Assembly: GCF_008000995.1 (NCBI RefSeq)
Contig: NZ_CP042828.1
Location: 434,001 to 498,000, forward strand
Source of the DNA: Ruania zhangjianzhongii
GTDB taxonomy: Bacteria > Actinomycetota > Actinomycetes > Actinomycetales > Beutenbergiaceae
Length of the DNA stretch: 64,000 bases
Direction: 5' to 3'
Made by a program: the position numbers and the translations under genes. Shown here in pieces: positions 23,854 to 58,722 of this stretch. The notes under the pieces were generated by a model. That model was not told the DNA's origin and did no database searches. It saw only the letters and a list, made by a program, of their open reading frames with translations. How positions within the stretch are numbered: the stretch's first letter is position 1; each line of letters begins with the position of its first letter.

Positions 23854-24609
23854 TCACCGCCGCGAGCGCCGCTTCGCCGACGGCAGCCGGCGCCGCTGCC
23901 AGGAGTTGAGGATGTGCTCGCTCATCGCGATCCGGGCTGCCTCCCGGTCTCCCGCCGAGATCGCCTCGACGATCTGCTCGTGCTCGGTGAGGGTGAGCTC
24001 GAAGGCGTGCGCGGGGTCGAGGCCGGTGTAGCGCTCGCTGCCGACGGCGTGGGCGATCAGCGTGCGCGCGATGTTCTCCGCGAGGGTGTTGTCCGAGAGC
24101 TCCATCACGGCGAGGTGGAACTGCACGTCGGCATCACGGAAGGCGGTGGAGTCCTCGATCAGCTCGGCCATCACCTCTAAGCGCTCGGCCAACTGGGCGC
24201 GAGCCTCGTCGGTCACGGCTCCAGCGGCTGCGGCGGCCATCGCAGCCTCGAGCGAGCCGCGGACCACGCTGAGGTCGTCCAGCACCCCGAGCGTGCTGTC
24301 ATTTCCGATCATCGTGGCCAGTACCAGCGGGTCGAGGACGTTCCAGTTGGTGCTCGGCAGCACGTGCGTCCCCCGGCCCTGGACGACGGTGATCATACCC
24401 TTCTCCTGAAGGCGCTTCATCGTCTCCCGGATCACCGTGCGGCTCACCCCGAACTCGGTGCTGAGCACGGCCTCGGGCGGCAGGATGTCACCGGCGGCGT
24501 ACTCGGCGGTGACGATCGAGCGGACGAGCTCGTTCAGGACGGTCACCCCGATGCGGTCGATCGGCGGTCTGGTCCGGCCGGGCGATCCCGGTCCTAACAG
24601 TTCAGGCAT
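23854..24609 (-). CDS. FadR-subfamily GntR regulator
   Basis: 251 residues. Winged helix at about 25-85 (ILPPEAVLSTEFGVSRTVIRETMKRL) and an FCD ligand domain at about 105-235 with metal-binding His residues (VQFHLAVMEL, EHEQIVEAI, SEHILNSW). FCD regulators commonly sense sugar acids or other organic acids. It is divergent from the eight-gene operon starting at 24715, and the palindrome at 24666-24676 lies between them. Likely controls that operon in response to an aldonate or keto acid. Confidence 0.9.
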   Translation of the reverse strand: MPELLGPGSPGRTRPPIDRIGVTVLNELVRSIVTAEYAAGDILPPEAVLSTEFGVSRTVIRETMKRLQEKGMITVVQGRGTHVLPSTNWNVLDPLVLATMIGNDSTLGVLDDLSVVRGSLEAAMAAAAAGAVTDEARAQLAERLEVMAELIEDSTAFRDADVQFHLAVMELSDNTLAENIARTLIAHAVGSERYTGLDPAHAFELTLTEHEQIVEAISAGDREAARIAMSEHILNSWQRRRLPSAKRRSRR

Positions 24610-24714: not shown

Positions 24715-25869
24715 ATGAAGGTCACTGGCTATCGCACGCTGCGGACGGTCCACCGCTGGGGTCGCCCGGTCGGCGACGTCAACGGGTTCATCGCCTCCGG
24801 CGTGACCGACGTGCCGGTGGTGATCGTGGAGACCGACGTCGGCATCGAAGGCGTCGCGATCGGTTCGCACGCCGATCTCGACCGACTCTTCCCGGCGATC
24901 GAGGGGCAGGACCCGCGAGCGGTCACAACGCTGTACGACGCCATGCTGGCGCGGGTGTTCAAGTCCTCGCACGCCGGGGCGACCTTCGGCGGCCTTGGCA
25001 CGCTCGACAGCGCGCTGTGGGACATCAAAGCCAAGGCGGCTGGCGAACCGCTGTGGCGGCTCCTCGGCGCCGGGGACCGGTTCGTGCACGGCTACGCCTC
25101 CGGTCTTGACGCCGCACTCTCCGCTGAGCAGCTCGAGACGTTGTACCGCTCCTTCGCCGAGCGTTCCTTCACCTCGGCCAAGCTGAAGGGCGGGCGCAAC
25201 GTCGAGGCGGATCTACGCCGGTTCGCCGTCCTGACCGACGTGCTCTCCGTCAACACGCCGACGCCCGCGCTGATGCTCGATGTGAACGAGTGCTGGAACC
25301 TCAAGCAGGCCGTGCGCTACGTGAGCACCCTGGAGGAGCAGGTCGACCTCACCTGGATCGAGGAACCGCTCCGGCGCTGGGACGCCACCGGGCACGCCCG
25401 GCTGAGCCGGTCGGTCAAGGCTGCCGTGGCGACCGGGGAGAACCTCACCGGACTGGAGCTGTACCGTCCGCTGCTGGACGCGGGCGGCGCCGACATCGTC
25501 CAGGCGGGTGCGATCTGGGGAATCACGCACTTCCTCCGGGTGGCTGTGGCCGCGCACAGCCGGGACCTCCCGGTCTCACCGGTGGGCCTGACCGCGAACT
25601 ACGCCGTCGCCGCTGCCGCAGCCGCCGTTCCGAACCATCTGTCCGCAGAGGTCCAGGATCTCGGTGTGCCGGTGGGGCTGGCGCTGGACCAGCAGATCGT
25701 CGACGGCGGGATCGTCCTGGGGGACCGGCCCGGCGGCGGGATCGAAGTCGACCAGCACCTGATCGCCGCGGCGCGCGAGGCCGGCGACTGGGAAGAACCC
25801 GCAGGCCCGCACGTCCGCCCGATCCGGGCCGGCCTGCGGCTGGTGGACAACGGAACGTGGGGAGAATGA
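24715..25869 (+). CDS. Enolase-superfamily (mandelate racemase/muconate lactonizing) sugar-acid dehydratase-like protein
   Basis: 384 residues from ATG at 24715 (GAGGA upstream). Capping domain about 1-125, then the barrel: KxK pair K156/K158 in SAKLKGG, metal ligands D189 (MLDVNECW), E216 (WIEEPL) and E242 (ATGEN). The His/Asp dyad of the mandelate racemase subgroup is not evident: the Asp position reads VQAGAIWGIT and the His position SPVGLT. It heads an operon with dehydrogenase, hydrolase, FAH-type dehydratase and ketoglutaric-semialdehyde dehydrogenase, so aldonate dehydration to a 2-keto-3-deoxy acid is the natural role, perhaps by a lysine-only mechanism. Confidence 0.82.
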   Translation: MKVTGYRTLRTVHRWGRPVGDVNGFIASGVTDVPVVIVETDVGIEGVAIGSHADLDRLFPAIEGQDPRAVTTLYDAMLARVFKSSHAGATFGGLGTLDSALWDIKAKAAGEPLWRLLGAGDRFVHGYASGLDAALSAEQLETLYRSFAERSFTSAKLKGGRNVEADLRRFAVLTDVLSVNTPTPALMLDVNECWNLKQAVRYVSTLEEQVDLTWIEEPLRRWDATGHARLSRSVKAAVATGENLTGLELYRPLLDAGGADIVQAGAIWGITHFLRVAVAAHSRDLPVSPVGLTANYAVAAAAAAVPNHLSAEVQDLGVPVGLALDQQIVDGGIVLGDRPGGGIEVDQHLIAAAREAGDWEEPAGPHVRPIRAGLRLVDNGTWGE

Positions 25870-26828
25870 TGGAACTGCGACCAGGACTGCACCGAATCCA
25901 GGCACCGCTGGGCGAACGCTTCATCGCGATGTATCTGCTCACCGGTCCCGATGGTGCCCTGCTCTTCGACACCGGTGTGGCCGAGTCGGTACCAGGCACC
26001 CTCGCGCCCTATCTCCAGCGCATCGGCTTCGACCCGGCCGGGCTGCGCTGGGTGATCAGCTCGCACTGCGACTTCGACCACACCGGTGGCAACGCCGCGC
26101 TACGCGAGCTGGCACCGCACGCCGAGCTTGCCGCCGGCCGCGCCGATGTGCCGATGACCGAGGACCTCGAGCTGCTGATCACCGGGCGCTACGGCGAGTT
26201 CGCCGCGCTGGACCGGTTCGATGATCCCCCGGAGACCACCGCCGAGATCCGGCGCAGCACGGCACTGGTCGGCGTCGATCGTGCCCTGGACGGAGGGGAG
26301 AGCTTCGACCTCGGCGGCGGCCGGCAGATCGAGGTGATCGCCGCACCCGGGCACTCGCCCGGCCACCTGGCGCTCTGGGATCCGGCCAACAGTGCACTGC
26401 TGATCTCCGATGCGGTACTCGGCGAGACGGTACCGACCGCGGACGGCCAGCCCGCCTTCCCGCCGACCTACCGGGACACCAGCGCCTACGTGCAGACCAT
26501 CCGCACGCTCGGCGAGTACCCGGCGGACCTGCTGCTGACCGCCCATTACCCGATCTACGAAGGCAGCGAGGTGAGCACCTTCCTCGCCACCTCGCTCGCC
26601 TACACCGAGCGGGTCGACGCCGTGATCGCCGAGGTCCTTGCCGCCGGGGAGGAGCTGACCTCGCTGGAGCTGATCCACCGCAGCGCGAAGGCGCTCGGCC
26701 CCTGGAACGCCGAAGCCTGCGAGTACCTGATCTTCCCGATGACCGGAAACCTGGAACGACTGACCCGGGACGGCCGGGTCGTCGAGGGCACCCGGGACGG
26801 CCTGCGGACCTGGCGGTGGGCAGCATGA
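25866..26828 (+). CDS. Metallo-beta-lactamase-fold hydrolase
   Basis: 320 residues from ATG at 25866, overlapping the dehydratase stop by 4 bases. The metal motif is HCDFDH (67-72): the usual HxHxDH has Asp in place of the second His, a variant seen in other members of the fold. A second His block PGHSPGH follows, then ISDAVLG with the bridging Asp and TAHYPIY. The C-terminal helical region resembles the extended hydrolases of the SoxH/ribonuclease-Z-like group. In this operon a lactonase, opening the lactone made by the dehydrogenase, would fit; thioesterase is an alternative given the CoA genes. Confidence 0.8.
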   Translation: MMELRPGLHRIQAPLGERFIAMYLLTGPDGALLFDTGVAESVPGTLAPYLQRIGFDPAGLRWVISSHCDFDHTGGNAALRELAPHAELAAGRADVPMTEDLELLITGRYGEFAALDRFDDPPETTAEIRRSTALVGVDRALDGGESFDLGGGRQIEVIAAPGHSPGHLALWDPANSALLISDAVLGETVPTADGQPAFPPTYRDTSAYVQTIRTLGEYPADLLLTAHYPIYEGSEVSTFLATSLAYTERVDAVIAEVLAAGEELTSLELIHRSAKALGPWNAEACEYLIFPMTGNLERLTRDGRVVEGTRDGLRTWRWAA

Positions 26829-27874
26829 GCGCGGTACGCCTGGGCGCGATCGGCGCCGGCTGGTGGGCCACCAGCAACCACTTCCCGCTGTTCGCGGCAC
26901 GCAAGGACGTCGAGCTGGTCGGGGTGTGCGGGCGCGGCCCGGGACTGGAGGACATCCGCGCGCAGTTCGGCTTCGACTTCGCCACCGAAGACGCTGACGA
27001 GCTGCTCGCCGCGGACATCGACGCCGTCGTGATCTCCACTCCGCACGACCTGCACCACCCGCTCGCCGCACAAGCGCTCGACCGCGGACTGCACGTGCTC
27101 TGTGAGAAGCCGATGACCTTACGCGCCGATCAGGCGTGGGACCTTGCCGATCGCGCGGAGCGCGCGGGCACCGTGTTCCTGGTGCCGTACGGCTGGAACT
27201 ACAAGCCGTTCACCGTGGCAGCCAAACAGATGCTCGACGGCGGTCGCATCGGTCAGATCCAGTACGTGCTCTGTCATATGGCCTCACCCACCCGCGGGCT
27301 GTTCGGCAGCGACCCGACCCACATGCTGGCGCGGTGGAACTCCGATACCGCCCCGAACCCGACCACCTGGTCCAGCCCAGAACACGGCGGCGGGTACGCC
27401 CACGGTCAGGTCACGCACTCCTCGGCCCTGCTGTTCTGGCTCACCGGCCTGCGCGCCGCCACGGTCGCGGGCCGGGTGAGCAATGCCGGCGCCGCGGTGG
27501 ACCTGTTCGATGCCGGTGTGGTCCGGTTCGACAACGGAGCCCTCGGCACCCTCTCCGGCGCAGCGACCCTCGCCGACGGCGACCGGTACCAGGTGGACAT
27601 CCGGCTGTTCGGCACCGAAGGCGTGCTGATGATCGACGCCGAACGGGAACGGGTCAGCCTGAGCCGCTACGACGGGCAGCGCGAAGACATTCCGATCGCC
27701 CCCGAGGAGGGCGACTACGAGTGCCTGGTCCCACCGGCGCGGTTCATCGACCTGATCACCGGAGCCAGCCAGGAGAACAATTCCGACGCCGCGGTGGCAG
27801 CGCGCTCGGTCGAGCTGATCGACGCGCTGCTGCGTTCCTCGGCCGCCGAGGGGCGCGAGACCCCCGTGCACTGA
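26825..27874 (+). CDS. Gfo/Idh/MocA-family sugar dehydrogenase
   Basis: 349 residues from ATG at 26825, overlapping the hydrolase by 4 bases. N-terminal Rossmann fold (AIGAGWWATSNHFPL) and family motif CEKPMTL with the conserved Lys, then a C-terminal substrate domain (HGQVTHSSALLFWL with a candidate catalytic His). Likely oxidises a sugar to its lactone with NAD(P). The next gene starts 59 bases later. Confidence 0.88.
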   Translation: MSAVRLGAIGAGWWATSNHFPLFAARKDVELVGVCGRGPGLEDIRAQFGFDFATEDADELLAADIDAVVISTPHDLHHPLAAQALDRGLHVLCEKPMTLRADQAWDLADRAERAGTVFLVPYGWNYKPFTVAAKQMLDGGRIGQIQYVLCHMASPTRGLFGSDPTHMLARWNSDTAPNPTTWSSPEHGGGYAHGQVTHSSALLFWLTGLRAATVAGRVSNAGAAVDLFDAGVVRFDNGALGTLSGAATLADGDRYQVDIRLFGTEGVLMIDAERERVSLSRYDGQREDIPIAPEEGDYECLVPPARFIDLITGASQENNSDAAVAARSVELIDALLRSSAAEGRETPVH

Positions 27875-27933: not shown

Positions 27934-29154
27934 ATGGCAGAGAAGTCCACCGGCAAGATCCTGGACGGCTACCGGGTGATCGACTGCTCGATCGCCATGG
28001 CCGGCCCGTTCGCCGCCCAGCGTCTGGGTGACCTCGGCGCCGATGTCCTCAAGGTCGAACCGACCAAGGGGGAGTGGCAGCGGTACGCCGCGGCCGGTGG
28101 CGCCCAGGGGAACACGGTGAACGTCTCGTTCCTCTCCCTGAACCGCAATAAGCGCTCCCTGGCCGTGGACCTGAAGTCCGACGACGGTCGACAGATCGTC
28201 CGTGACCTGATCGCCACCGCGGACGTCTTCCTGCAGAACTACCGGCCCGGCGTCGCCGCCCGGCTCGGCCTGGACTACGAGACTCTCGCGGCGATCAACC
28301 CCTCGCTGGTGTACGTGTCGATATCCGGCTACGGCGAGGACGGACCTTACCGGGACCGCCCAGGCCAGGACCTGATCCTGCAGGCGATGACCGGGGCGAT
28401 GCTCTCCGCCGGCCGCGCCGGTGAGCCGCCCACACCCGCCGGTCTGTTCCTCGCCGACGCCGTCACCGCCTCCACCGCCTTCGAAGGAGTGCTCGCCGCC
28501 CTGCTGCACCGGGAGCGCACCGGGGAGGGGCAGCTGGTCACCGTGAACATGCTCGACGCCCTGACCACGCTGCAGATGCAGGAGTTGTCCGTCTACACCG
28601 TGGGCGGAGTGCCGCAGGAGCGCGGCGAGGAGCCGAACGCACACGTCTACATCCGCGCCCCGTACGGGGTGTTCGCCACCAGCGACGGCTACCTCGCGCT
28701 CGCGTTCGCGGACCTGAGCACCCTCAGCGAGGTGCTCGACGAACCCTCGCTGGCCGGGCTCGACCCGGAAGAGCACGGCTGGACCCACCGCGACGAGCTG
28801 TACGCCACAGTGGCGCGCCACCTCAAGGACCGGACCACCCAGCACTGGCTTGATGTGCTGCTCCCGGCCGGGCTGTGGGTCGGGCCGGTGCAGGGTTACG
28901 CGGACCTGGTCGAGGACCCGCAGATCCTCCACAACGGCACCTTCGTCGAGTACGAGCACCCCACCGAGGGGTGGGTGAAAACCCCCGGGTTCCCCTACAG
29001 GTTCGCCAAGACCCCGCCGTCGGTGGACCGCGGCGCCCCGCTGGTCGGTGAGCACACCCGGGAGATCCTCACCGAGCTTGGCATCGAGTCCGAGCGGGTG
29101 CAGGCTCTGGAAGAATCTGGCGCGATCGCCGCCACCGCCCCGGTGCGGCAGTGA
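27934..29154 (+). CDS. Family III (CaiB/BaiF) CoA-transferase
   Basis: 406 residues from ATG at 27934 with AGAGGAAG upstream. Family III enzymes move CoA between carboxylic acids through an aspartyl-CoA intermediate. Visible: VIDCSIAMAGPFAAQRLGDLGADVLKVE at the start, NRNKRSL, NYRPGV, and catalytic Asp D146 in RPGQDLILQAMTG. Length is normal. It overlaps the following solute-binding-like gene by 4 bases and is repeated in the same context at 58719-59915. It implies that the operon activates a carboxylic acid as a CoA thioester, which ordinary sugar-acid pathways do not need. Confidence 0.93.
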   Translation: MAEKSTGKILDGYRVIDCSIAMAGPFAAQRLGDLGADVLKVEPTKGEWQRYAAAGGAQGNTVNVSFLSLNRNKRSLAVDLKSDDGRQIVRDLIATADVFLQNYRPGVAARLGLDYETLAAINPSLVYVSISGYGEDGPYRDRPGQDLILQAMTGAMLSAGRAGEPPTPAGLFLADAVTASTAFEGVLAALLHRERTGEGQLVTVNMLDALTTLQMQELSVYTVGGVPQERGEEPNAHVYIRAPYGVFATSDGYLALAFADLSTLSEVLDEPSLAGLDPEEHGWTHRDELYATVARHLKDRTTQHWLDVLLPAGLWVGPVQGYADLVEDPQILHNGTFVEYEHPTEGWVKTPGFPYRFAKTPPSVDRGAPLVGEHTREILTELGIESERVQALEESGAIAATAPVRQ

Positions 29155-30272
29155 CCGACTTCCTCGGGCTGACCTGGGACCACCCGCGCGGCCGGAACGC
29201 CCTGGCGGCAGCCGCCCCTCGGCTCGGCGGCGGCGACCGCCTGCACTGGCACGTCCAGCCGCTGGAGGGGTTCGAGTCCGCACCGATCGACGAGCTCGCC
29301 CGCAGCTACGATCTGCTCGTGCTGGACCACCCGCACCTCGGTGACGCGCTCGCCACCGCCAGCCTGCGGCCGTTGGACGAGCTGGTCGACGCCGAGCAGA
29401 TCCGTGCCTGGGAGCAGGCGGCGATCGGGCCGACGCTCGCCTCCTACCGGATGGCCGGGCAGCTGTGGGCGCTGCCGCTGGACGCCGCGACGCAGGTCTC
29501 CGCCCGGCGCCGGGACCTGGTCCCGGACGCCCCGACCACGTGGGGTGAGGCAGAGCAGCTGGCCGAGCGGGGCCTCCTCGCTCTGAGCCTGGCCGGACCG
29601 CACGCCTTCCTCTCCCTCTGTTCGGTCGCCGTTTCCTTCGGGGACAACCCGGGCAGCACGCCCGGCGGGCTGTTCCACCGCCCGACGGCGCAGCGCGCCC
29701 TGGCACTGCTGACTCACCTGGCCGCTCGCGCACCCGAAGGCACGGAGCTGCTCAACCCGATCGGGCTGCTGGGCCGGATGCGCGATCACGGCGATATCGG
29801 CTACCTGCCACTGGTGTACGGCTACGTCACCTACTCCGCACCGGAGCTGGCCTTCGGCACCGTGCCGACCGAGAACGGGCGGATCGGCTCCACTCTGGGT
29901 GGCACCGGGATCGCCGTCACCCGCCGGTCGGAGCCGTCGCCGGCGCTGCTGGACCACCTGCGCTGGTTGCTCCGGGAGCAGACACAGCGCACCTTCATCC
30001 CCGCCCACGACGGCCAGCCGGGCATCCGCGCAGCCTGGACCGACCTGGACGTCGATACCGCGGCGCACGGCTTCTACTCCGGCACCCGCGCAGTGCTCGA
30101 GGCCGCCTGGGTCCGGCCCCGCCTCCCGGGCTACATCCCGTTCCAGTCCGCGGCGTCGGCCATCGTGCGCGCGGCGATCAGCGGCGGACGCAGCGGCGCC
30201 AGCGCGCTGGACGAGCTTGAGGAACGCTTCGCGCAGCTCGGCACGCACCCCAGCAGAGAGGACCTGCCATGA
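29151..30272 (+). CDS. Signal-less solute-binding-protein-like protein, CoA-transferase-linked
   Basis: 373 residues. The fold signature is that of family 1 ABC solute-binding proteins: SYDLLVLDHPH, LPLDAATQV, PTTWGEA, YLPLVYGYVTYS, GSTLGGTGIAV. But there is no signal peptide, Tat motif or lipobox: the protein begins MTDFLGLTWDHPRG and its start overlaps the CoA-transferase stop by 4 bases, so it should stay in the cytosol. No permease is adjacent. A homologue of the same length lies at 57601-58722 in the same position relative to another CoA-transferase. Its role is unknown: binding of a small acid or CoA ester, enzyme scaffold, or sensor are possible. Confidence 0.85.
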   Translation: MTDFLGLTWDHPRGRNALAAAAPRLGGGDRLHWHVQPLEGFESAPIDELARSYDLLVLDHPHLGDALATASLRPLDELVDAEQIRAWEQAAIGPTLASYRMAGQLWALPLDAATQVSARRRDLVPDAPTTWGEAEQLAERGLLALSLAGPHAFLSLCSVAVSFGDNPGSTPGGLFHRPTAQRALALLTHLAARAPEGTELLNPIGLLGRMRDHGDIGYLPLVYGYVTYSAPELAFGTVPTENGRIGSTLGGTGIAVTRRSEPSPALLDHLRWLLREQTQRTFIPAHDGQPGIRAAWTDLDVDTAAHGFYSGTRAVLEAAWVRPRLPGYIPFQSAASAIVRAAISGGRSGASALDELEERFAQLGTHPSREDLP

Positions 30273-31051
30273 CTGTCACCTCCGACACCGACCTGATCGT
30301 GGTCGAGACCACCGGCGCCGTCGCCACTGTGCGGCTGAACCGGCCGGAGAAGCTGAACGCCGTCACCCAGGCGATGAGCGACTCCCTGGTCCGGATCGTC
30401 CGCGCCCTGAACGAGGACCCCGGCATCCGCGCGGTGGTCTACACCGGCACCGGCCGCGCGTTCAGCGCCGGTTCGGACATCGCCACCCTCGACCAGTACG
30501 CCACGCCCTGGCAGTTCCGGAACCGGTGGGACTACTGCGATGCGCTCCGCGAGCTGCGCAAGCCGGTGATCGCCGCGGTGAACGGGTACGCCTTCGGCGG
30601 AGGCCTGGAGGCCGCCCTGACCTGCGACATCCGGCTGGCCGCCGAGACCGCCACGTTCGCTGCACCGGAGATCAAGCTCGGCTGGATCGGCGGCGGCGGG
30701 ATGTCACCGCTGCTCGCGCAGTCCGTGGGCGCGAGCAACGCCGCGCTGATGCTGATGACCGGCGACCCGATCGACGCCGCGCGCGCCCTCTCCTGGGGGC
30801 TGATCAGCGAGGCAGTCCCCGCTGCGGACCTCCTGGCCCGGGCGCAGCAGCTCGCCGCCACCATCGCCGCCCGGCCACCGATCGCCGCCGAGACCGGGAA
30901 GGCCAACCTGCGGGCGTCCTGGAACCTTCCCCTGGACCAGGCGATCGGCTACGAACGAGAGATGCAGGCGATCACCTTCGCCACCCAGGATGCGGCCGAA
31001 GGCCGCGCCGCCTTCGCCGAGAAGCGAACCGGTACGTTTCAAGGACACTGA
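30269..31051 (+). CDS. Enoyl-CoA hydratase/isomerase (crotonase family)
   Basis: 260 residues; ATG at 30269 overlaps the preceding stop by 4 bases. Both catalytic glutamates of hydratases are present: E114 in GGGLEAALTCD and E134 in APEIKLG. Oxyanion-hole glycines lie in FSAGSD and GYAFGGG. Expected to hydrate or otherwise process the CoA thioester made by the CoA-transferase. The next gene starts 58 bases downstream. Confidence 0.92.
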   Translation: MTVTSDTDLIVVETTGAVATVRLNRPEKLNAVTQAMSDSLVRIVRALNEDPGIRAVVYTGTGRAFSAGSDIATLDQYATPWQFRNRWDYCDALRELRKPVIAAVNGYAFGGGLEAALTCDIRLAAETATFAAPEIKLGWIGGGGMSPLLAQSVGASNAALMLMTGDPIDAARALSWGLISEAVPAADLLARAQQLAATIAARPPIAAETGKANLRASWNLPLDQAIGYEREMQAITFATQDAAEGRAAFAEKRTGTFQGH

Positions 31052-31109: not shown

Positions 31110-32306
31110 ATGACCGAAAGCTGGGCCGGGCCGGTCGAGACCGTGCTGCCCGACGATGCCGACGATGCACTGCTGGCCGGGCGGGTGTGGCTGCCGGAGG
31201 TCGGTGGGCCTGCGGTCGTCGTCTGCCGCAACGGCCAGGTGCTGGACCTGTCTGGCTCGTTTGCCACGATGCGGGATCTGACGGAGGAGGCGGACCCGGC
31301 GGTCGCCCTGCGCGGCGCGGACGGTCCGGTGGTCGGTTCACTCGCGGATCTGTGGGCGAACACGAACCCGGACGCTCGGGACCCGCGCCGGCCGTGGCTG
31401 CTGTCGCCGATCGACCTGCACGTAGTCAAGGCGGCCGGGGTCACCTTCCCGGTCTCCATGCTGGAGCGGGTGATCGAGGAGCGGGCCGGTGGTGAGGCGG
31501 AGTCGGCCCAGGGAATCCGGGAGACCGTGCTGGCGGCGCTCGGCGGGGACATCCGCGATCTGGTGCCCGGTTCGGACCAGGCCGCCCGGCTCAAGGAGGT
31601 GCTGGTCGCCGAAGGGCTGTGGAGCCAGTACCTGGAGGTGGGGATCGGGCCGGATGCGGAGATCTTCACCAAGGCGCCGGTGCTGGCCACGGTCGGCGGC
31701 GGGGTGGACGTCGGCGTGCTCGCCGAGTCGGAGTGGAACAACCCGGAACCCGAGGTGGTGCTGGCGGTCTCCGCCGCCGGAACGATCGTGGGCGCGACGC
31801 TCGGTAACGATGTGAACCTGCGCGATATCGAGGGGCGCTCGGCGCTGCTGCTCGGCCGGGCGAAGGACAACAACGCCTCCGCCTCGCTCGGACCGTTCCT
31901 CCGGCTCTTCGACGACCGCTTCGACCTGGCGGACGTGCGCGAGGCGACCGTGCAGCTCACCGTGACCGGAGCGGACGGGTTCGCCATGTCCGCCAGCTCG
32001 CACATGGACCAGATCAGCCGCGACCCCGCCGATCTGGTGCAGCAGGCGATCGGGAGGCACCACGCCTACCCGGACGGGTTCGTGCTCTACCTGGGCACGA
32101 TGTTCGCCCCGGTGGAGGACCGCGACGAACCGGGGCACGGCTTCACCCATCACCTCGGCGACGTGGTCCGGATCTCCTCCCCGCGGCTCGGCGCCCTGGT
32201 GAACCGGGTACAGCACAGCGAGTCGCTCGAACCCTGGAGCTTCGGGATCTCCGCGTTGATCACCAGCCTCGCCGAACGAGGCCTCGTCGGAAGGACACGA
32301 CCGTGA
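31110..32306 (+). CDS. FAH-family 2-keto-3-deoxy-sugar-acid dehydratase (XylX-like)
   Basis: 398 residues from ATG at 31110 (AGGAGAG upstream). The fumarylacetoacetate hydrolase fold is seen in VGIGPDAEIFTKAP, ESEWNNPEPEVVLAVS (metal-ligand acids) and GNDVNLRDIEGRS. Proteins of this size followed by a ketoglutaric-semialdehyde dehydrogenase act as 2-keto-3-deoxy-pentonate dehydratases in Weimberg-type pathways (Caulobacter XylX). Here the dehydrogenase follows with a GTGA overlap, so conversion of a 2-keto-3-deoxy-pentonate to alpha-ketoglutaric semialdehyde is the likely reaction. Confidence 0.85.
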   Translation: MTESWAGPVETVLPDDADDALLAGRVWLPEVGGPAVVVCRNGQVLDLSGSFATMRDLTEEADPAVALRGADGPVVGSLADLWANTNPDARDPRRPWLLSPIDLHVVKAAGVTFPVSMLERVIEERAGGEAESAQGIRETVLAALGGDIRDLVPGSDQAARLKEVLVAEGLWSQYLEVGIGPDAEIFTKAPVLATVGGGVDVGVLAESEWNNPEPEVVLAVSAAGTIVGATLGNDVNLRDIEGRSALLLGRAKDNNASASLGPFLRLFDDRFDLADVREATVQLTVTGADGFAMSASSHMDQISRDPADLVQQAIGRHHAYPDGFVLYLGTMFAPVEDRDEPGHGFTHHLGDVVRISSPRLGALVNRVQHSESLEPWSFGISALITSLAERGLVGRTRP

Positions 32307-33817
32307 CCACCCTCACCACCACCGACCCCCGCACCGGCACCAGCCGCGACACCGACCTGACCAAGACCGGAGCCGAGGAGGTCGCGGCGATCACCGAACA
32401 CGCCAGTGCGGCCTTCGCCCAGTTGCACGAGCAGCCGCGCAGCTGGCGCGCCGGTCTGCTCCGTGCGCTGGCCGACGGCCTGGAGGCCGACCGGGACGGC
32501 CTGGTGGAGGCGGCGATGAGCGAGACCGGGCTGCCCGAGGCCCGGCTGAACGGCGAGCTGAGCCGCAGCGCGTTCCAGTTCCGGCTTTTCGCCGACGCCG
32601 TGGCCGAGGGCGGGTACCTCGAGGCGATCATCGATCACGCCGGTCCGACCCCGCTCGGCCCCGGCCCGGATGTGCGCCGGATTCTGGTGCCGATCGGCCC
32701 GGTGGCCGTGTTCGGTGCGAGCAACTTCCCGTTCGCGTTCTCGGTGGTGGGCGGGGACACCGCCTCGGCGCTCGCCGCCGGGAACCCGGTGGTGATCAAG
32801 GCGCACAGCTCGCACCCGGTCACCTCACAGCGATCCTTCGCCGCGCTCGAGCGCGCAGCCGCTGCGTACGGCGCACCGGCCGGCACCTTCGGGATCGTCT
32901 ACGGCCAGAAGGCCGGCTCGGCGCTGGTGGCCGACCCGCGGATCGCCGCCGTGGGATTCACCGGATCGCTGTCCACCGGCAAGATCCTGCAGCGGATCAT
33001 CGACGAACGACCCACGCCGATCCCGTTCTACGGAGAGCTCTCCAGCCTGAACCCGCTGGTGATCACTGCCGGCGCTGCTGCCGCACGCACCGCCGCGCTC
33101 GGTGAAGGACTGTTCACCTCGGTGACCGGTTCGGCCGGCCAGCTGTGCACCAAGCCCGGACTGGCCTTCGTCCCTGCTGGTGCTGCCGGTGACGAGCTGG
33201 TGGCGGACGTCGTCTCCCGCGCCTCTGCCGCGGGGGCGCAGACCCTGCTCAACGCGCGCATCCACAGCGCCTTCGACGAGATCCGCAGCCGGCTGATCGG
33301 CGACGGGCAGGCGCGCAGCCTGGTGGCGCCTCAGCACGGGGATGCGGGGTTCTCGCTCACCCCCGGCGTCCTCGAGATCGACGCCGCCGACGTCACCGCC
33401 GCGGTGACCGAAGAAGCCTTCGGACCCCTGGTGGTCCTGGTGCGCTACCGCAGCATCGAGGAGATCCGCACTGCGCTGCAGGCGGTGCCGCACTCGCTGA
33501 CCGCCACGATCCACTCCACGGCCGAGGAGACGCAGCAACGCGCTGCGCTGACCGAGGCGGTCACGCCCCTGGTCGGGCGGATCGTCTACGACGGCTTCCC
33601 CACCGGGGTGCGCGTCTCCTGGGGGATGCACCACGGCGGGCCGTGGCCGGCCACGAACACCCAGCACACGTCAGTGGGGGTGACGGCGATCCGCCGGTTC
33701 CTGCGCCCGCTCGCCTGGCAGGACGCACCGGCCGACGTCCTGCCGGCGGAGCTGCGGGACGGGACGGTGGACCTTCCGCGCCGGGTGGACGGGGTGCTGC
33801 AGCTCGCCGGGAGCTGA
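32303..33817 (+). CDS. Alpha-ketoglutaric semialdehyde dehydrogenase
   Basis: 504 residues from GTG at 32303. Aldehyde dehydrogenase with N141 (GASNFPFAFS), K166 (VVIKAHSS), E245 (FYGELSSLNP) and catalytic C282 (GQLCTKPG). The motifs GASNFPFAFSVVGGDTASAL and FYGELSSLNP mark the ketoglutaric-semialdehyde dehydrogenase (2,5-dioxovalerate dehydrogenase) group. It finishes a non-phosphorylative pentose pathway, yielding 2-oxoglutarate for the TCA cycle. Last gene of the operon; a hairpin follows. Confidence 0.92.
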   Translation: MTTLTTTDPRTGTSRDTDLTKTGAEEVAAITEHASAAFAQLHEQPRSWRAGLLRALADGLEADRDGLVEAAMSETGLPEARLNGELSRSAFQFRLFADAVAEGGYLEAIIDHAGPTPLGPGPDVRRILVPIGPVAVFGASNFPFAFSVVGGDTASALAAGNPVVIKAHSSHPVTSQRSFAALERAAAAYGAPAGTFGIVYGQKAGSALVADPRIAAVGFTGSLSTGKILQRIIDERPTPIPFYGELSSLNPLVITAGAAAARTAALGEGLFTSVTGSAGQLCTKPGLAFVPAGAAGDELVADVVSRASAAGAQTLLNARIHSAFDEIRSRLIGDGQARSLVAPQHGDAGFSLTPGVLEIDAADVTAAVTEEAFGPLVVLVRYRSIEEIRTALQAVPHSLTATIHSTAEETQQRAALTEAVTPLVGRIVYDGFPTGVRVSWGMHHGGPWPATNTQHTSVGVTAIRRFLRPLAWQDAPADVLPAELRDGTVDLPRRVDGVLQLAGS

Positions 33818-36113: not shown

Positions 36114-37013
36114 TCAGCGCGGGCTTCCCGCAGTGGTGGCCGTGGACCGGACGACGCCGAGCCGGGAGCGTGCGTCCTCGTCGAGCTCGGCGTGCGGGGG
36201 GCGCACTCCACCAGCCTCGATCCCCTGCCAGCGCAGCAGCTGCTTGATCGTCGCGACGTTGTACCGCCCACCGTGCTCGGCGCGGAGTGCTTCGACCGGT
36301 TCCACGAAGTCACGCACCAGGTCACGGAGCTGGCCGAGGTCACCGTCGGTGACCGCTCGGTGCACGGCGAGGGCGATGTCCGGGCGGGCGTTCGCGATAC
36401 CAGACGTGAACGACGTCACGCCCAGCGCGCCGAAGGACGCCACTGCCGACTCCGCGAGCCCGTTGATCCAGGTGCATTGCTCGCCTGCCGGTCCGGCCAG
36501 CAGCGTGGCCAGCGTGTGCAGGTCGTTGCGGGCGTACTTGACGCCGACGACCGCCGGGAGCGCGGCCAGCTCGGCGAGGTGGGTTGGCTGCAGCCGGGTG
36601 GATCGCAGATAGAGGACGGTCGGCAGGGCCGAGGTCTGGGCCAGCTGCCGGTAGAAGGAGGTCAGGCTGTCCGGATCGCCGAACGGGTCTGCGGGTTCGT
36701 GCACCATAGCGGCGTGGTAGCCCAGCTCCCGGGCCGTCTCGATCTCGGACAGCATCGTCGGCATGCCGCCGCAGACTCCGGCGATTCGAGTGACCGGCTG
36801 GTCGACTGCCGCCACCGCCCTCAGCACCGCCAGTCGCTCATCCGGCCCGAGCTGCTGGACCTCCGCCGTGTTGCCGAGCGCCGTCAGCACCGGGACACCG
36901 GCCGCAGCGGCCCGAGCGGCGATAGCGGTGACGGTGTCCTCGTCGACCTGCGCGGTACCCTCGCGGTAAGCGGTGATGAGCACGGCGGTGACGCCGTCGA
37001 GGTCGGTAGTCAC
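36114..37013 (-). CDS. DapA-family (dihydrodipicolinate synthase-like) aldolase
   Basis: 299 residues from GTG at 37013, overlapping the SDR stop by 4 bases. Schiff-base K159 (VVGVKYARN) and the catalytic Tyr Y135 (TVLYLRS) are present; the GTTGE loop reads GNTAE. In this context, behind an SDR and an enolase-superfamily enzyme, cleavage of a 2-keto-3-deoxy sugar acid to pyruvate plus an aldehyde is the best guess. Confidence 0.85.
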   Translation of the reverse strand: MTTDLDGVTAVLITAYREGTAQVDEDTVTAIAARAAAAGVPVLTALGNTAEVQQLGPDERLAVLRAVAAVDQPVTRIAGVCGGMPTMLSEIETARELGYHAAMVHEPADPFGDPDSLTSFYRQLAQTSALPTVLYLRSTRLQPTHLAELAALPAVVGVKYARNDLHTLATLLAGPAGEQCTWINGLAESAVASFGALGVTSFTSGIANARPDIALAVHRAVTDGDLGQLRDLVRDFVEPVEALRAEHGGRYNVATIKQLLRWQGIEAGGVRPPHAELDEDARSRLGVVRSTATTAGSPR

Positions 37014-38976: not shown

Positions 38977-39040
38977 CGTCTCTTCCCGTCCATATCGGCA
39001 CCCTAGCAGTCGAGTGCATACACAGCGAAAGACGAATAGA

Positions 39041-39084: not shown

Positions 39085-39102
39085 CGGCGCAATAGCAGGC
39101 GA

Positions 39103-54216: not shown

Positions 54217-55233
54217 ATGGTGACGCTGCGAGATGTGGCCGGCCACGCCGGGGTGTCGGTGTCGGTCGTCTCACGCGTGCTCAACTCCGACCCGTCGATC
54301 AGGATCCGGCCTCAGACCCGCGAACGTGTGCTGGCCTCGGCCCGGCTGCTGCGCTACGCCCCGAACTCCGCCGGCCGGTCGCTGCGCCGCTCGCGCACGC
54401 ATCTGCTCGCGCTCGTGGTCCCGGATGTCACCAACGCGACCTTCACCGACCTGGTCAACGGCGTGGAGTCGCGCGCTCTGGACCAGGACTACTCGGTGCT
54501 GCTGGCGTCCAGCCCGCGGATGCAGCCCGGCAGTGACGGGTTCACCCGCCTGCTCAGCGAACGGCTGGTGGACGGTGTGCTGCTGCAGAAGGGCGACGAT
54601 GCCCCCGCCGAACTCGTCGCCCAGGCGCTCGGCCGGCCGGAGCGTACGGTGATGATCAACTCCGGCCCGGTACCGGGGGTGGCGACGGTCGCCATCGACG
54701 ACACCGCGGCCGGCGTCCTGGCCACCCGCCATCTGCTCGAGCTCGGGCACACCGTGATCGGTTACGTCGGTGGCGTTCGAACCTCCGACACCAACGACCG
54801 CCGTCGAGCCGGAGTGGTGCAGACCCTCGCTGAGGCCGGGCTCACGCTTGCACCGGCACACCAGACCAGCCTGGGCTACACCTACCGGTCGGCACGGGAC
54901 GCGGTCCGGCTGCTGCTCAGCCGCGAACCGACCCCGACCGCCCTCGTGGTCGGTAACGTCAACGCCGGTATCGGCGCCCTGACCGAGGCTGGCCAGATGG
55001 GCTTCGACGTGCCCCGGGACCTCTCCGTGGTGGCGATCCACGACATCTGGCCGGCGATCACCTGCGCGCCAGCGCTGACCACGATCCGGCTGCCGATGGC
55101 CGCACTGGGCTCCACAGCGGTGGATGTCTTGCTCGCCGGCCTGCAGACACCGGACAGCCGCAGCCGGATCATCGACGATCCGGCTGCAGAGCTCATCCTG
55201 CGGGCGTCGACCGCACCGCCCGGCGGGAGCTGA
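54217..55233 (+). CDS. LacI-family transcriptional regulator
   Basis: 338 residues from ATG at 54217. LacI helix-turn-helix and hinge (TLRDVAGHAGVSVSVVSRVL, then YAPNSAGRSLRRSRTHLL) and the periplasmic-binding sensor domain (ALVVPDVTNATFTDLVNGVE, DGVLLQKGDD, VGGVRTSDTNDRR, VVAIHDIWPAIT). It is divergent from the glycosidase gene and convergent with the dehydrogenase gene, one base apart. Copies of its probable operator at 54169 and around 62480-62625 suggest a local regulon including the GH95 and Lpl importer genes. Confidence 0.92.
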   Translation: MVTLRDVAGHAGVSVSVVSRVLNSDPSIRIRPQTRERVLASARLLRYAPNSAGRSLRRSRTHLLALVVPDVTNATFTDLVNGVESRALDQDYSVLLASSPRMQPGSDGFTRLLSERLVDGVLLQKGDDAPAELVAQALGRPERTVMINSGPVPGVATVAIDDTAAGVLATRHLLELGHTVIGYVGGVRTSDTNDRRRAGVVQTLAEAGLTLAPAHQTSLGYTYRSARDAVRLLLSREPTPTALVVGNVNAGIGALTEAGQMGFDVPRDLSVVAIHDIWPAITCAPALTTIRLPMAALGSTAVDVLLAGLQTPDSRSRIIDDPAAELILRASTAPPGGS

Positions 55234-55234
55234 G

Positions 55235-56305
55235 TCACGGCAGCGGATGGCCACCTGCCTGACCGGCGGTGTGTGCCGCCTCGAGCACGGCCATGGTCCG
55301 CAGCGCGTCGGTGGCCGCCGTCGGCAGGGTGGCCGCCTCGCCGGTCACATAGCGTTGCAGCGCGCCCATCGAGCCGATGAAGGCGTCCGGGAACCAGGAG
55401 CCGTCCACCTCGATCGCCCGCCAGCCTGTGCCGGTGGTCACCTCGAGCAGGTCCGGTCCGCCGCGCGGGTAGTCCAGCAGCAGCCCGAGCTGGGCGCGGA
55501 TCGCCCCTTCGGTGCCGTGCCAGAGCACCGCGGCCTCCTGGTGCGCCGGCCCGAACGTGTGGTCGTGGTTCGTGCTGACCGTCACCCGCAGCGGGCGGTG
55601 GGCGTAGTGCAGCAGGTAGGCGCTGCGGGTGCTGGCGAGCTTCTTGTCCGGATGGGCCGTCGTCATCGCGCTGACACCGGTGGGGTCGCCGACGAAGGAG
55701 CGGACCAGGTCCACGTAGTGCACCGAATGCATCGGCATCTCCATCCGGTCCAGCGCGAACACGCTCGGGAACAGCTCCCACCGGGTCTCCACCCGCACCA
55801 GCACCTCGAGGTCGATCAGCTCACCGATCGTCCCGGCGGCGATCAGCCGGCGGGCGGCGGCCACCTGGGGTGCGAACCGCAGCTGGGTGTTTACTGCGGC
55901 GACCAAGTTCTTGCGGGTGACGAGGTCGACCAGTTCGCCGGCCTGGGCGTAGGTGTAACCGAGCGGCTTCTGCAGCTGCACCGCCGCGCCGTCGGGCAGG
56001 GCTTCGAGGATCGAGGCGAAGGCGTCCGGCATCACCGCGACGTCATAGACCACGTCTCGGCCGTGGGCGGCGACAGCCTCGGCGATGTCGGTGTGGGTGG
56101 TCGGTACGCCGAAGTCGGCGGCGAGGCCCGCCGCGCGGTCGCCGTCGACGTCGACGATGGCGGCCACCGGAAATTGCGCCTTGCGGTAGGCGGGCAGGTG
56201 CGCGTCCCGAGCGATCCCGCCGGCACCGACGAGCACGATCGGCACCGGTTCGCTCGGCGGCCCGGCCAAGTAGGCGGGGTCCGGGTCGCGATCGATGAGC
56301 GTCAT
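55235..56305 (-). CDS. Gfo/Idh/MocA-family sugar dehydrogenase
   Basis: 356 residues from ATG at 56305, overlapping the amidohydrolase stop by 4 bases. Rossmann motif VLVGAGGIARDAHLPAY, family QKPLGYTYAQAGELV with the conserved Lys-Pro, candidate catalytic His in MHSVHYVDLVRSFVG. Likely oxidises a sugar to a lactone, the substrate of the neighbouring amidohydrolase-type lactonase. Last gene of the operon. Confidence 0.88.
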   Translation of the reverse strand: MTLIDRDPDPAYLAGPPSEPVPIVLVGAGGIARDAHLPAYRKAQFPVAAIVDVDGDRAAGLAADFGVPTTHTDIAEAVAAHGRDVVYDVAVMPDAFASILEALPDGAAVQLQKPLGYTYAQAGELVDLVTRKNLVAAVNTQLRFAPQVAAARRLIAAGTIGELIDLEVLVRVETRWELFPSVFALDRMEMPMHSVHYVDLVRSFVGDPTGVSAMTTAHPDKKLASTRSAYLLHYAHRPLRVTVSTNHDHTFGPAHQEAAVLWHGTEGAIRAQLGLLLDYPRGGPDLLEVTTGTGWRAIEVDGSWFPDAFIGSMGALQRYVTGEAATLPTAATDALRTMAVLEAAHTAGQAGGHPLP

Positions 56306-57159
56306 CGGTTGTCCTGTGGCGCTGCGCGGTCCAGTCCGTACACCCGCGAGGCCGTATCCGCGCGCAGCGCCTGCGCCTGCTCCGGCGGCAGCCGGTCGAC
56401 GGCAGCGGTGAGCACGTTCATCGTCACCTCGGTGCCACCGGAGACGGTGCACATCGGCCAGTCGCTGCCGATCATCAGCCGGTCAGCGGAGAACACGGCC
56501 AGCGCGGTGGCCAGTACGGCATCCATCTCCTGGGCGGAGACGGCCGCGCCATCGGCCCGGTAGATCCCGGACACCTTGGCCACCACATTGGCCAGCGACC
56601 CGAGCTCGGCGAGCTGATCCTGCCACCGGCGGTAGTCGCCGTCGAGCCCCACCGGCGGCTTGCCGAGATGATCCAGCACGAAGGGGAGGCCGGGATGGTC
56701 GCGAGCGAGCCGGATGAGGTTCTCCAGGTGCCGCGGCAGTACGGACACATAGTCGAGCGGGACGCCAGCCTCCTCGATCAGCGCGAGGCTGCGGCGTTGA
56801 TCGGTACCCAGGATCCAGTCCGGGTCGCTCCGGTCGTGGGTGAGGTTGCGGATCCCGACGAAGTCCGGCGTCGCGGTGAGCACCGGCAGTTGCGCCGCGA
56901 CGGTCTCCGGGTCCTCCAGCGGCAGGTAGCAGACGGCGCCGGCCAGGCGAGGGTCCGCGGCCACCAGCTCGAGCAGATAGTCGGTCTCGGCGAGCGTCTC
57001 GTCGGCCTGCACGAGCACGGCCTGCTCCACCCCGGCCCCGGTCAGGGCCTCGAAGGCCTGTGCCAGCGAGTGGTCGGCGCGCAGCGGTTCAGGCGCGCCG
57101 TCCAGCCAGGCGTACCGCGACCGCGCCCGGTCCCAGACGTGCAGGTGGGCGTCGATCAC
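56302..57159 (-). CDS. Amidohydrolase-2 family protein, sugar lactonase-like
   Basis: 285 residues from GTG at 57159. IDAHLHVWD at the start supplies the metal His pair; later LPFVLDHLGKPP and MIGSDWPMC give the other His and the Asp. This is the pattern of the L-fuconolactonase/L-rhamnonolactonase branch of amidohydrolase-2 proteins (COG3618 type). Paired with a Gfo/Idh dehydrogenase and a GH95 fucosidase/galactosidase gene in one run, opening of L-fucono- or L-galactono-lactone is the likely role. Confidence 0.85.
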   Translation of the reverse strand: MIDAHLHVWDRARSRYAWLDGAPEPLRADHSLAQAFEALTGAGVEQAVLVQADETLAETDYLLELVAADPRLAGAVCYLPLEDPETVAAQLPVLTATPDFVGIRNLTHDRSDPDWILGTDQRRSLALIEEAGVPLDYVSVLPRHLENLIRLARDHPGLPFVLDHLGKPPVGLDGDYRRWQDQLAELGSLANVVAKVSGIYRADGAAVSAQEMDAVLATALAVFSADRLMIGSDWPMCTVSGGTEVTMNVLTAAVDRLPPEQAQALRADTASRVYGLDRAAPQDNR

Positions 57160-57614
57160 GTGCGTTCACCCCGCTTGTTGACCACGTACAGATGCACCAG
57201 CGAGAGCACGATATCGCCGTCGGAGTTCGTCACCGTCACCTGCTCGTCCACCCGGCCGAGCTCGGGGCGGCGGGGATGGTCGGCGATCTCGGTGATCTCC
57301 GCCCGGACGGTGATGCTATCGCCCAGGTAGACGGGTTTGATGAACCGGATCCGGTCGTAGCCGTAGCTCATCGCCTGCGGGTTGACGTCCCCGGCGGTCA
57401 TCCCCACGGCGATCGAGATGATCAGCGTGCCGTGCGCGATCCGGCCCGGCAGACCGGCCTCCTCGATGCACCAGCGTTCGTCCATGTGGTGCGGGAAGAA
57501 GTCGCCGGTCTGGCCGGCGTGCAGGACCACGTCCGCTTCGGTGATCTGGCGGCCGAGCGTGCGCCGCTCCTCGCCGAGGCGGTAGTCCTCCAGGTAGCGG
57601 TCAACGACCTGCAT
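57156..57614 (-). CDS. MaoC-like (R)-specific enoyl-CoA hydratase
   Basis: 152 residues from ATG at 57614. Single hot-dog domain with hydratase-2 motif: D38 and H43 in GDFFPHHMD, followed by GRIAHGTLIISIAVGM. Expected to hydrate an enoyl-CoA. It overlaps the solute-binding-like gene by 14 bases and the lactonase gene by 4. In the homologous module at 27934-31051 the same position is held by a crotonase. Confidence 0.9.
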   Translation of the reverse strand: MQVVDRYLEDYRLGEERRTLGRQITEADVVLHAGQTGDFFPHHMDERWCIEEAGLPGRIAHGTLIISIAVGMTAGDVNPQAMSYGYDRIRFIKPVYLGDSITVRAEITEIADHPRRPELGRVDEQVTVTNSDGDIVLSLVHLYVVNKRGERT

Positions 57615-58722
57615 GCTCGGCCTCCTCTGCCAAAGCTGTGAACATCCGGTCCAGGTCTTCGAGCACCGGGGCTGCCGCCTCGCGCTCCCACAGCCCCCGG
57701 TGCACCCGCTCGCAGGCGGCGTCCTGCACCGCCATGAAGTCCGGGTGCTGGGGACGCAGGCTGGCCTGGTCGAGGGTGCGGCGGGTGCCGGAGAAGAAGC
57801 CGTGGGTGAGGGCGTCCAGGTCCGGGTCCATCCACGCGGTCAGGTGCCCGGGCTGGCCGCCGCCGAGCGCGTACACCCCGCGCTGCACCAGGCCGGTGGC
57901 CACCCAGGTGGCGAAGGCGATCGCCTCCTCCGGATGGGCGGTCCGGGCGGAGACCGCCAGCCCGGCACCGCCGAGCATCGAGCCCCGCGGCTGGCCGTCG
58001 ATCTCCGGGATGTCCCTCCAGCACAGCAGCTGGTCGCGGAACCCGGGGCGGGAGTAGTTCGTGTACCCGTACAGCAGCGGTGCGTAGGCCCAGCGGTTCT
58101 CGGTCGCCATCCGGTCGGCCACCTGGATCGGGTTCGCGCTACGGCACTCGGGCGGGACCAGATCGCGCAGCCGGCCAAGCAGGTGCCAGGCCTCGGCGAA
58201 CGCGGCCGGGTCCGCGAAGCGGCCCTGGCCCGCGTCCGCGCCCTGCAGGCCCGAGACGAGCGTGAAGGTGGAGGCGAACGCGTCGATCGGCTTCGCCGGC
58301 CAGAGCACGACGCCGTCCCTCGCCAGGTCGAGCACTTCCGCCCAGGTGCGTGGGGGCTCGGGGAGGAGGTCCGGCCGGTAGGCCGCGACCTGGGCGGCCG
58401 CATCGATGGCCAGGCCGTACCGGGCGCCCTGCCAGCAGTAGCTCTGCGCACTGCGACCGACGAACTCCGCTGGACCGTCGCCGTCGGGCAGGGCAGCGAG
58501 CAGCCCGGCGTGCGCCGCCTCGGGGATGTGCGGGTGATCGATGACCAGCAGGTCGTAGGACTCGGTGAGCGAAGCCAGACCCTGGTCGGCGAACGCCTGC
58601 AGCGAGCGGGCGTCCCAGTCGATCTGCACGCCGCTGCTCGCCGCATAGGCCCGGCTGGCGGCCACGATGCTGCCGTGACCACGGGGATGGTCCCAGGTGA
58701 TCCCGCGCAGTCGGAGGGTCAC
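57601..58722 (-). CDS. Signal-less solute-binding-protein-like protein, CoA-transferase-linked (second copy)
   Basis: 373 residues from GTG at 58722, overlapping the CoA-transferase stop by 4 bases. Same length as the protein at 29151-30272, with shared motifs GITWDHPRG, SYDLLVIDHPH, IDAAAQV, PPRTWAE, YAPLLYGYTNYS, GSMLGGAGLAV and HGFFSGTR. No signal peptide, Tat motif or lipobox, so it should be cytosolic. The solute-binding fold is inferred from motif order. Function unknown; tight linkage to CoA-transferase and hydratase suggests a part in the CoA-thioester pathway rather than in transport. Confidence 0.85.
   Translation of the reverse strand: MTLRLRGITWDHPRGHGSIVAASRAYAASSGVQIDWDARSLQAFADQGLASLTESYDLLVIDHPHIPEAAHAGLLAALPDGDGPAEFVGRSAQSYCWQGARYGLAIDAAAQVAAYRPDLLPEPPRTWAEVLDLARDGVVLWPAKPIDAFASTFTLVSGLQGADAGQGRFADPAAFAEAWHLLGRLRDLVPPECRSANPIQVADRMATENRWAYAPLLYGYTNYSRPGFRDQLLCWRDIPEIDGQPRGSMLGGAGLAVSARTAHPEEAIAFATWVATGLVQRGVYALGGGQPGHLTAWMDPDLDALTHGFFSGTRRTLDQASLRPQHPDFMAVQDAACERVHRGLWEREAAAPVLEDLDRMFTALAEEAEHAGR

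Follow-up and report, generated by a model that had tools for sequence, protein, structure and literature searches.

Dehydration of hydroxyacids by coenzyme A (CoA) swapping is known from the carnitine system, where the CaiB transferase exchanges CoA between the product thioester and the substrate acid and the crotonase CaiD dehydrates, as well as from BaiF/BaiE and from FldA and HadA with their dehydratases. In a stretch of 64,000 nucleotides from Ruania zhangjianzhongii (contig NZ_CP042828.1, positions 434,001 to 498,000; hereafter the window), we found two operons that each encode a family III (CaiB/BaiF) CoA-transferase, a 373-residue protein resembling a solute-binding protein (SBP), which we call SBPc, and a hydratase, this being a crotonase in operon 1 and a MaoC-type enzyme in operon 2 (Table 1). 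The family III CoA-transferase and crotonase of one operon and the proposed CoA-swap logic are as in CaiB/CaiD, but the trio stands in sugar-oxidation operons, includes a sugar-binding protein and fills the hydratase slot with two unrelated folds. The operon 1 transferase scored 136 bits against the L-carnitine CoA-transferase family, under the cut-off of 413, and is not a member; the trio seems to be allied to CoA-swap dehydration by the likeness of its working and to lie outside the carnitine family. We read it, with a probability of about 0.45, as a CoA-dependent module for the dehydration of aldonates, working by analogy with CaiB/CaiD, in which SBPc would hold the sugar acid and the hydratase fold would follow the configuration at C3.

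The clusters around the trio can be compared with several other described systems. With Weimberg/Route II oxidation, as presented in PMC6336799, they share a probable sugar dehydrogenase, an FAH-family protein that is probably a 2-keto-3-deoxypentonate dehydratase, a probable semialdehyde dehydrogenase (the last two by family matches), an importer and a repressor, but the CoA trio stands where minimal clusters show no acid-sugar dehydratase by seed matches; the main text of that paper has no occurrence of "CoA". The MaoC-type clusters share a mutarotase, a dehydrogenase and a lactonase with the L-fucose pathway FucM-A-B-C-F-G, and some of them also L-fuconate dehydratase, SDR and FAH hydrolase genes, whereas the CoA-transferase, SBPc and MaoC fall outside the route as its main text describes it, in which "CoA" and "MaoC" occur 0 times (PMC11199699). 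For CoA thioesters of a sugar acid there is a proposed precedent, the Klebsiella oxidation of deoxyribonate via deoxyribonyl-CoA; the part of that route described in PMC6365646 comprises a CoA-synthetase, dehydrogenase, thiolase and CoA-transferase, with neither the SBP nor the hydratase of the trio. SBPc itself has, by prediction and profile, the full-length fold of ABC-importer sugar SBPs (MalE, the trehalose/maltose-binding protein 1eu8, LpqY, SmoF), but it lacks a signal peptide and a tie to a permease, and its gene overlaps or adjoins that of the CoA-transferase. Within the openly licensed literature we found no description of a CoA-transferase/SBPc/hydratase module, and searches for aldonyl-CoA and five named forms returned nothing; subscription papers may hold a description. 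The parts of the trio belong to known families, and their combination, with a cytosolic SBP as fixed partner of a CoA-transferase, is one that we have not seen described.

Open reading frames (ORFs), Pfam and phmmer confirmed the same ordered trio in both operons, as a preliminary description of the window had claimed. Its statement that the genes overlap by 4 to 14 bases also holds: in operon 1 the transferase/SBPc and SBPc/crotonase overlaps are exactly 4 bases each, and in operon 2 those between transferase, SBPc, MaoC, amidohydrolase and Gfo/Idh are, in that order, 4, 14, 4 and 4 bases. Both operons likewise contain the Gfo/Idh dehydrogenase and the candidate lactonase that it had named, the latter a metallo-beta-lactamase (MBL)-fold protein in operon 1 and an amidohydrolase in operon 2 to which we take the number COG3618 to apply. 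The two transferases share 38% identity. The operon 1 SBPc matched no Pfam family at E 0.01; its homology to the operon 2 copy was shown by alignment (32–33% identity) and by a profile that had been built with both window copies in it.

Loci with SBPc were collected from plasmid records, from a scan at one genome per species and from relatives of the window genome. The scan gave at least 577 relatives among 595 candidate stretches, the best 80 of which were kept, and because of how the loci were gathered the sample leans toward close relatives of the queries. Of the 118 SBPc in the earlier set, 112 had a CaiB gene on their own strand no more than 300 bases away, and 117 had one within 12 kb. 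With nine loci added, the full set held 128 SBPc rows from 126 loci, one broken gene giving two rows; here a CaiB gene lay within 300 bases of 121 rows, preceding SBPc in 106 of them and following it in 15, compared with 1 of 53 ordinary importer SBPs of the same loci. The module occurs in many soil and marine bacteria; the loci span Actinomycetota, Pseudomonadota and Bacteroidota as well as two other phyla, and the named records include Streptomyces, Sinorhizobium, Azospirillum, Variovorax, Roseibium, Rufibacter and Persicobacter, along with two loci of Dormiibacterota and one of Phycisphaerae. The distribution is patchy: SBPc was present in 3 of 296 genomes across Actinomycetota, whereas for the order the count was 21 of 396, for the family 12 of 24 and for the genus 7 of 8; two of the three scans behind these counts scored the best four to six first-look candidates per genome. 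Divergence of SBPc and of CaiB was correlated at 0.92 across 80 representatives, a value to which host kinship contributes and which was reached in 0 of 500 permutations. The pairing of CoA-transferase and SBPc, whose conservation outside this genome the preliminary description had proposed to check, is confirmed to exceed chance and to recur across phyla.

The AlphaFold2 model of the operon 2 SBPc (pLDDT 95.3, pTM 0.93) forms a complete maltose-binding-protein fold according to Foldseek, where the best 50 of 1121 matches (E ≤ 0.001) were sugar-binding proteins of ABC importers and apparent maltose-binding-protein fusions; the best TM-score among the matches listed was 0.84, to SmoF with sulfoquinovose or its methyl glycoside. 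A profile search gave the same picture, with 1eu8, LpqY and SmoF. The N terminus carries a T-W-x-H-P-R-G motif, of which T, W, H, R and G, together with many polar residues, were invariant in a 14-row alignment; in 46 sequences the invariant positions were T9, W10, H12, R14, G15, D57, D62, D107, Y223, Q290, W297 and R323, and H63 was nearly so. D62 and R323 align at or beside what we take to be the sugar contacts of 1eu8.

Neither window copy has a signal peptide. Both start 7–8 residues ahead of TWDHPRG, overlapping the transferase stop by 4 bases, and a start codon 5–11 residues ahead of the motif was available in 122 of 125 motif-bearing SBPc (exceptions L004, L066 and L069; a further 3 of the 128 rows gave no motif match and are outside this count). 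Peak N-terminal hydrophobicity had a median of 0.40 and stayed under 1.8 for 115 of the 116 SBPc measured, the other one having an alanine run, compared with 9 of 14 control SBPs of the same loci at 1.8 or above. The controls below that value were those of L005 and L007, whose annotated starts seem to cut into the signal, two SBPs of the window, and that of L012, which turned out to be a second cytosolic type. The importers of the Azospirillum locus L138 and of L005 each come with a separate SBP, the one in L138 bearing a plain signal sequence, and the Bacteroidota loci L012 and L142 gave zero matches to ABC permease or ATPase seeds. Measured against an importer SBP, SBPc has the fold by model, lacks the export signal and does not serve a permease or ATPase of its operon. 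It appears, from its sequence, to be cytosolic and unlike an importer component, which agrees with the preliminary description of a signal-less, cytosolic protein; membership of an ordinary importer, which that description had named as a refuting result, was not borne out. A check of the loci for fusions of SBPc to another seed gene found none; in L132 (G310:C2:298000-317900), one close relative, the SBPc gene and a nearby enolase gene are each split into two frames. A second family of signal-less SBPs occurs in the same clusters (L004:5426-6613, L012:15532-16782, L070, L080, L142 and L045) and, where looked at, adjoins a second CaiB gene or a Gfo/Idh gene.

The two hydratases go with two groups of SBPc. 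A quick tree built from 116 SBPc together with 5 importer SBPs united 17 crotonase-linked SBPc and L135 in a single group of 18 rows (support 100) and placed the remaining, MaoC-linked SBPc outside it. The earlier suggestion that unrelated hydratase folds occupy one slot of a fixed three-part module is supported. The catalytic Asp of the transferase was present in all 124 aligned sequences of 127 collected, and the catalytic Glu pair of the crotonase in 26 of 27, including the window copy (exception L080). An intact MaoC (GDxxPHH) was found in 79 of 96 MaoC-bearing loci, adjoining CaiB or SBPc in 33 and Gfo/Idh in 38. Transferase and hydratase are adjacent with intact active sites in the window operons and in the crotonase-type loci, and in part of the MaoC type it is the intact MaoC that is not adjacent. 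Clusters that combine a MaoC gene bearing the catalytic His motif with a second one lacking it were seen at L036, L044, L049, L059 and L073, among others.

To describe the pathway context, we counted seed matches within 9 kb in those loci that had 7 kb or more of sequence to either side (82 MaoC-type and 17 crotonase-type). The MaoC-type loci contained a COG3618 lactonase in 60, Gfo/Idh in 60, MR/MLE in 46, mutarotase in 45, SDR in 17, FucD in 11, FAH in 10 and GH95 in 7 cases, and annotated records showed a fuller L-fucose set including L-fuconate dehydratase. This fuller set corresponds to the non-phosphorylating L-fucose set as described in PMC11199699 and PMC11378808, and the neighbors point to the MaoC-type module belonging with L-fucose-type oxidation. 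In the crotonase-type loci we found FAH-family genes in 13, SDR in 11, Gfo/Idh in 10 and aldehyde dehydrogenase in 7 cases; the FAH and aldehyde dehydrogenase matches fit Route II pentose oxidation as outlined in PMC6336799, and the neighbors point to the module belonging with Weimberg-like oxidation of pentoses to 2-oxoglutarate. The cleanest cluster, that of Azospirillum L138, encodes LacI, SDR, transferase, SBPc, crotonase, an FAH-family protein, aldehyde dehydrogenase and an importer; over 21 kb no lactonase, enolase-type or IlvD-type seed was matched, Pfam likewise giving no such enzyme in 10 chosen ORFs of 34, and the trio would occupy the place where a lactonase and an aldonate dehydratase are expected. 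Seeds and the incomplete PLSDB gene tables gave no aldonate dehydratase within about 9–10 kb in L008, L009, L136 and L140 either. Clusters of the window's relatives contain, in addition, an MBL-fold protein and an enolase with an SPVG string.

From these contexts we infer the chemical steps, the CoA donor, the substrate and the role of SBPc as follows. The sugar would first be oxidized to a lactone and aldonate, and the CaiB-type transferase would place CoA on the aldonate, the donor in steady state being the product thioester. The hydratase would then remove the 3-hydroxyl from the aldonyl-CoA, giving an enol and hence a 2-keto-3-deoxyaldonyl thioester, and the transferase would pass the CoA to the next aldonate, releasing 2-keto-3-deoxyaldonate; a CoA swap on aldonates would in this way yield the compound that the following enzyme requires. 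An aldonyl thioester whose C4 hydroxyl is free should lactonize, so a protein gripping the chain would be useful. We propose that SBPc is such a protein: working with the transferase in the cytosol, it would clamp the sugar acid by binding the aldonate or the aldonyl chain, and it might thereby prevent the lactone from forming again through attack of the C4 or C5 hydroxyl on the thioester. MaoC and crotonase hydratases accept the 3-hydroxyacyl-CoA of matching configuration, and the C3 hydroxyl is D-configured in L-fuconate and L-configured in L-arabinonate and D-xylonate. MaoC (R/D-3-hydroxyacyl-CoA) could thus serve acids of the L-fuconate type and crotonase (S/L) those of the L-arabinonate and D-xylonate type, a match that would account for two folds in the same slot. 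The preliminary description had read the logic as acid to CoA thioester followed by hydration; its CoA logic is kept, and the direction is probably better read as dehydration. Its suggested substrate, aceric acid or some other branched sugar acid of pectin, was dropped: no neighboring gene pointed there, and the neighbors indicate L-fucose-type and pentose oxidation instead.

Several observations weigh against a dehydrating trio. Classical dehydratase seeds (FucD, MR/MLE, IlvD) were matched in 53 of the 82 MaoC-type and 9 of the 17 crotonase-type loci, and a homologue of L-fuconate dehydratase, with 56% identity, is encoded about 31 kb ahead of the window in its genome, which also gave 21 MR/MLE and 2 IlvD-family matches. 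These homologues rule out the trio as the sole aldonate dehydratase of the window genome. Two genomes with a crotonase module and no enolase in the cluster, G351 and G061, have elsewhere one IlvD-family gene each and three and two MR/MLE matches over the cut-off, respectively, so that other dehydratases are not proven absent in any genome. The catalytic motif is missing from another 44 MaoC genes, of which 40 adjoin CaiB or SBPc, and the nearest MaoC has Val at the His column in 35 of 68 cases; among 39 loci with a motif-less MaoC by the trio, the fetched stretch held an intact MaoC in 23, beside Gfo/Idh in 17. The motif-less and intact proteins look like paired subunits, possibly of a heterodimer. 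CoA-transferase–crotonase clusters without an SBPc of their own occur in Martelella L014 (17415-19446) and Microbacterium L023, loci that do also contain a MaoC-type SBPc. Lastly, within the window's genus, genes like annotated alpha-L-fucosidase (GH29 seed) adjoin the crotonase-type loci L129-L132, which pentose alone does not fit. It is because of these dehydratase genes, SBPc-less clusters and GH29 neighbors that we hold the aldonate-dehydration reading at the probability given above.

The same dehydratase genes bear on an alternative that we consider unlikely, namely that the CoA chemistry acts on an aldonate without replacing the ordinary dehydratase, its substrate being a rarer relative of the same stereochemical series such as L-galactonate, D-arabinonate or 2-O-methylated fucose or xylose. 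2-O-methyl fucose and 2-O-methyl xylose occur in rhamnogalacturonan II, and GH95, the family found in a few MaoC-type loci, includes L-galactosidases. The MR/MLE and FucD genes near MaoC-type modules and the FucD of the window genome would be explained, as would the 152 bits of the operon 2 lactonase against the NCBIfam L-fucono-1,5-lactonase, under the curated cut-off of 400. The spread over rhizobia, marine bacteria and Bacteroidota argues instead for a common sugar, the L138 cluster requires the dehydration of a plain pentonate, and we see no clear way for CoA to open a 2-O-methyl ether. It is improbable, too, that SBPc is an enzyme or lactone-opening partner, with CoA attacking an aldonolactone held by SBPc and CaiB, combining lactonase and activation in one step before the hydratase acts. 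The absence of lactonase seed matches within 9 kb in L008, L009, L136 and L138 and the conservation of H12, R14, D62, D107, R323 and, nearly, H63 would suit such a role, which has to be set against the SMP-30, MBL or COG3618 lactonase candidates of other clusters, the plain sugar-SBP fold predicted for SBPc and the substrates of family III transferases, which are acids and acyl-CoA, not lactones. A sugar SBP fold without an importer role, and the transferase–crotonase pairs of L014 and L023, could also be reconciled with SBPc as a cytosolic sensor that turns on the transferase or a regulator, the CoA chemistry serving another end; we rate this as very improbable, as the start-stop overlap and correlated divergence suggest a working subunit and a seed match to LacI, IclR, FadR or GntR is already present in 109 of the 126 loci. 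That SBPc is an ordinary importer protein with a missed or lost signal, as public records imply by labeling it an extracellular or ABC transporter solute-binding protein, is scarcely credible given the start positions, often overlapping the transferase gene, the hydrophobicity values, the signal-bearing SBP of the L138 importer and the lack of permease and ATPase matches in L012 and L142.

If the aldonate-dehydration reading is true, CoA thioesters join non-phosphorylating sugar catabolism. We suggest, tentatively and with more doubt than confidence, a sugar-acid dehydration route additional to those of the enolase, IlvD/EDD and COG2721 families. In it CoA would act catalytically, a CaiB-type enzyme would carry out the swap, the C3 configuration would decide the hydratase fold, and a cytosolic sugar-binding protein derived from ABC importers would serve as a working subunit guarding the aldonyl thioester against lactonization. 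Many CaiB/BaiF genes of unassigned substrate would gain a role, and the choice between MaoC and crotonase by C3 configuration would be a directly testable rule. The transporter annotation would also be corrected: a family found in at least 577 genome stretches and labeled as a transporter protein appears to act within the cell, together with CoA-based reactions of sugars.

Table 1. Genes of the two operons and their neighbors in the window
Feature	Coordinates	Strand	Evidence
FadR-type GntR regulator, divergent from operon 1	23854..24609	-	ORF and similarity to related loci; family name by sequence reading, no Pfam scan
Enolase-superfamily (MR/MLE) protein	24715..25869	+	Pfam MR_MLE_C 132 bits; alignment
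MBL-fold hydrolase, possible lactonase	25866..26828	+	Pfam Lactamase_B 87 bits
Gfo/Idh/MocA dehydrogenase, probable sugar 1-dehydrogenase	26816..27874	+	Pfam 82 bits
Family III (CaiB/BaiF) CoA-transferase, operon 1	27934..29154	+	Pfam PF02515 CoA_transf_3 361 bits, full length; catalytic Asp present
SBPc, crotonase-type clade, 373 aa	29151..30272	+	GTG start within transferase stop; alignment, profile, tree
Crotonase	30269..31051	+	Pfam ECH_1 206 bits; both catalytic Glu present
FAH-family protein, probable 2-keto-3-deoxypentonate dehydratase (presumed substrate)	31110..32306	+	PDB 9kkt 424 bits; 2q18 57 bits
Aldehyde dehydrogenase, probable alpha-ketoglutaric semialdehyde dehydrogenase (presumed substrate)	32303..33817	+	Pfam Aldedh 160 bits; PDB 3v4c 338 bits, 1eyy 326 bits
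LacI-type regulator next to operon 2	54217..55233	+	Pfam LacI
Gfo/Idh dehydrogenase, operon 2	55235..56305	-	Pfam 40 bits
COG3618-type amidohydrolase, L-fucono-1,5-lactonase-like	56302..57159	-	Pfam Amidohydro_2 150 bits
MaoC-type hydratase, motif TGDFFPHHMD	57156..57614	-	Pfam MaoC 73 bits; PDB 4ffu 155 bits
SBPc, MaoC-type clade, 373 aa, GTG start	57601..58722	-	Pfam SBP_bac_8/SBP_bac_1 44/42 bits; AlphaFold2 model
Family III CoA-transferase, operon 2	58719..59915	-	PDB phmmer to formyl-CoA transferase 185 bits; catalytic Asp present
GH95 glycosidase, frame broken near 3' end	59918..62474	-	Pfam Glyco_hydro_95_cat 400 bits; tail in other frame

PDB 2q18, matched by the FAH-family protein of operon 1, is 2-keto-3-deoxy-D-arabinonate dehydratase, and the FadR-type regulator gene was found again next to other operon-1-type clusters. 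The GH95 gene beside operon 2, of the alpha-L-fucosidase/galactosidase family, has a frame break that is either a sequencing error or genuine; an open frame at 58719-62474 (1251 residues), which contains the operon 2 transferase, is an artefact of read-through of this upstream break. The operon 1 enolase has the KxK and the metal ligands and lacks the Asp-His dyad, which weakens it as the obvious dehydratase of that operon. SPVG replaces the His motif in 11 of 12 operon-1-type copies examined, the L176 copy being without the string. Enolases that retain KxK without the usual dyad were also seen at L124, L129-L132, L134, L177-L179 and L181, and in an alphaproteobacterial fucose cluster the MR_MLE protein of L005:19696-20817 has as its nearest PDB entry the 3,6-anhydro-L-galactonate cycloisomerase 5xd7, not an L-fuconate dehydratase. 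Between the two operons, window positions 36114-48628 encode DHDPS-like and SDR proteins, an enolase without KxK, a nucleoside hydrolase, a split transketolase, an FGGY kinase, a regulator with a sugar-binding domain and a GH42 beta-galactosidase.

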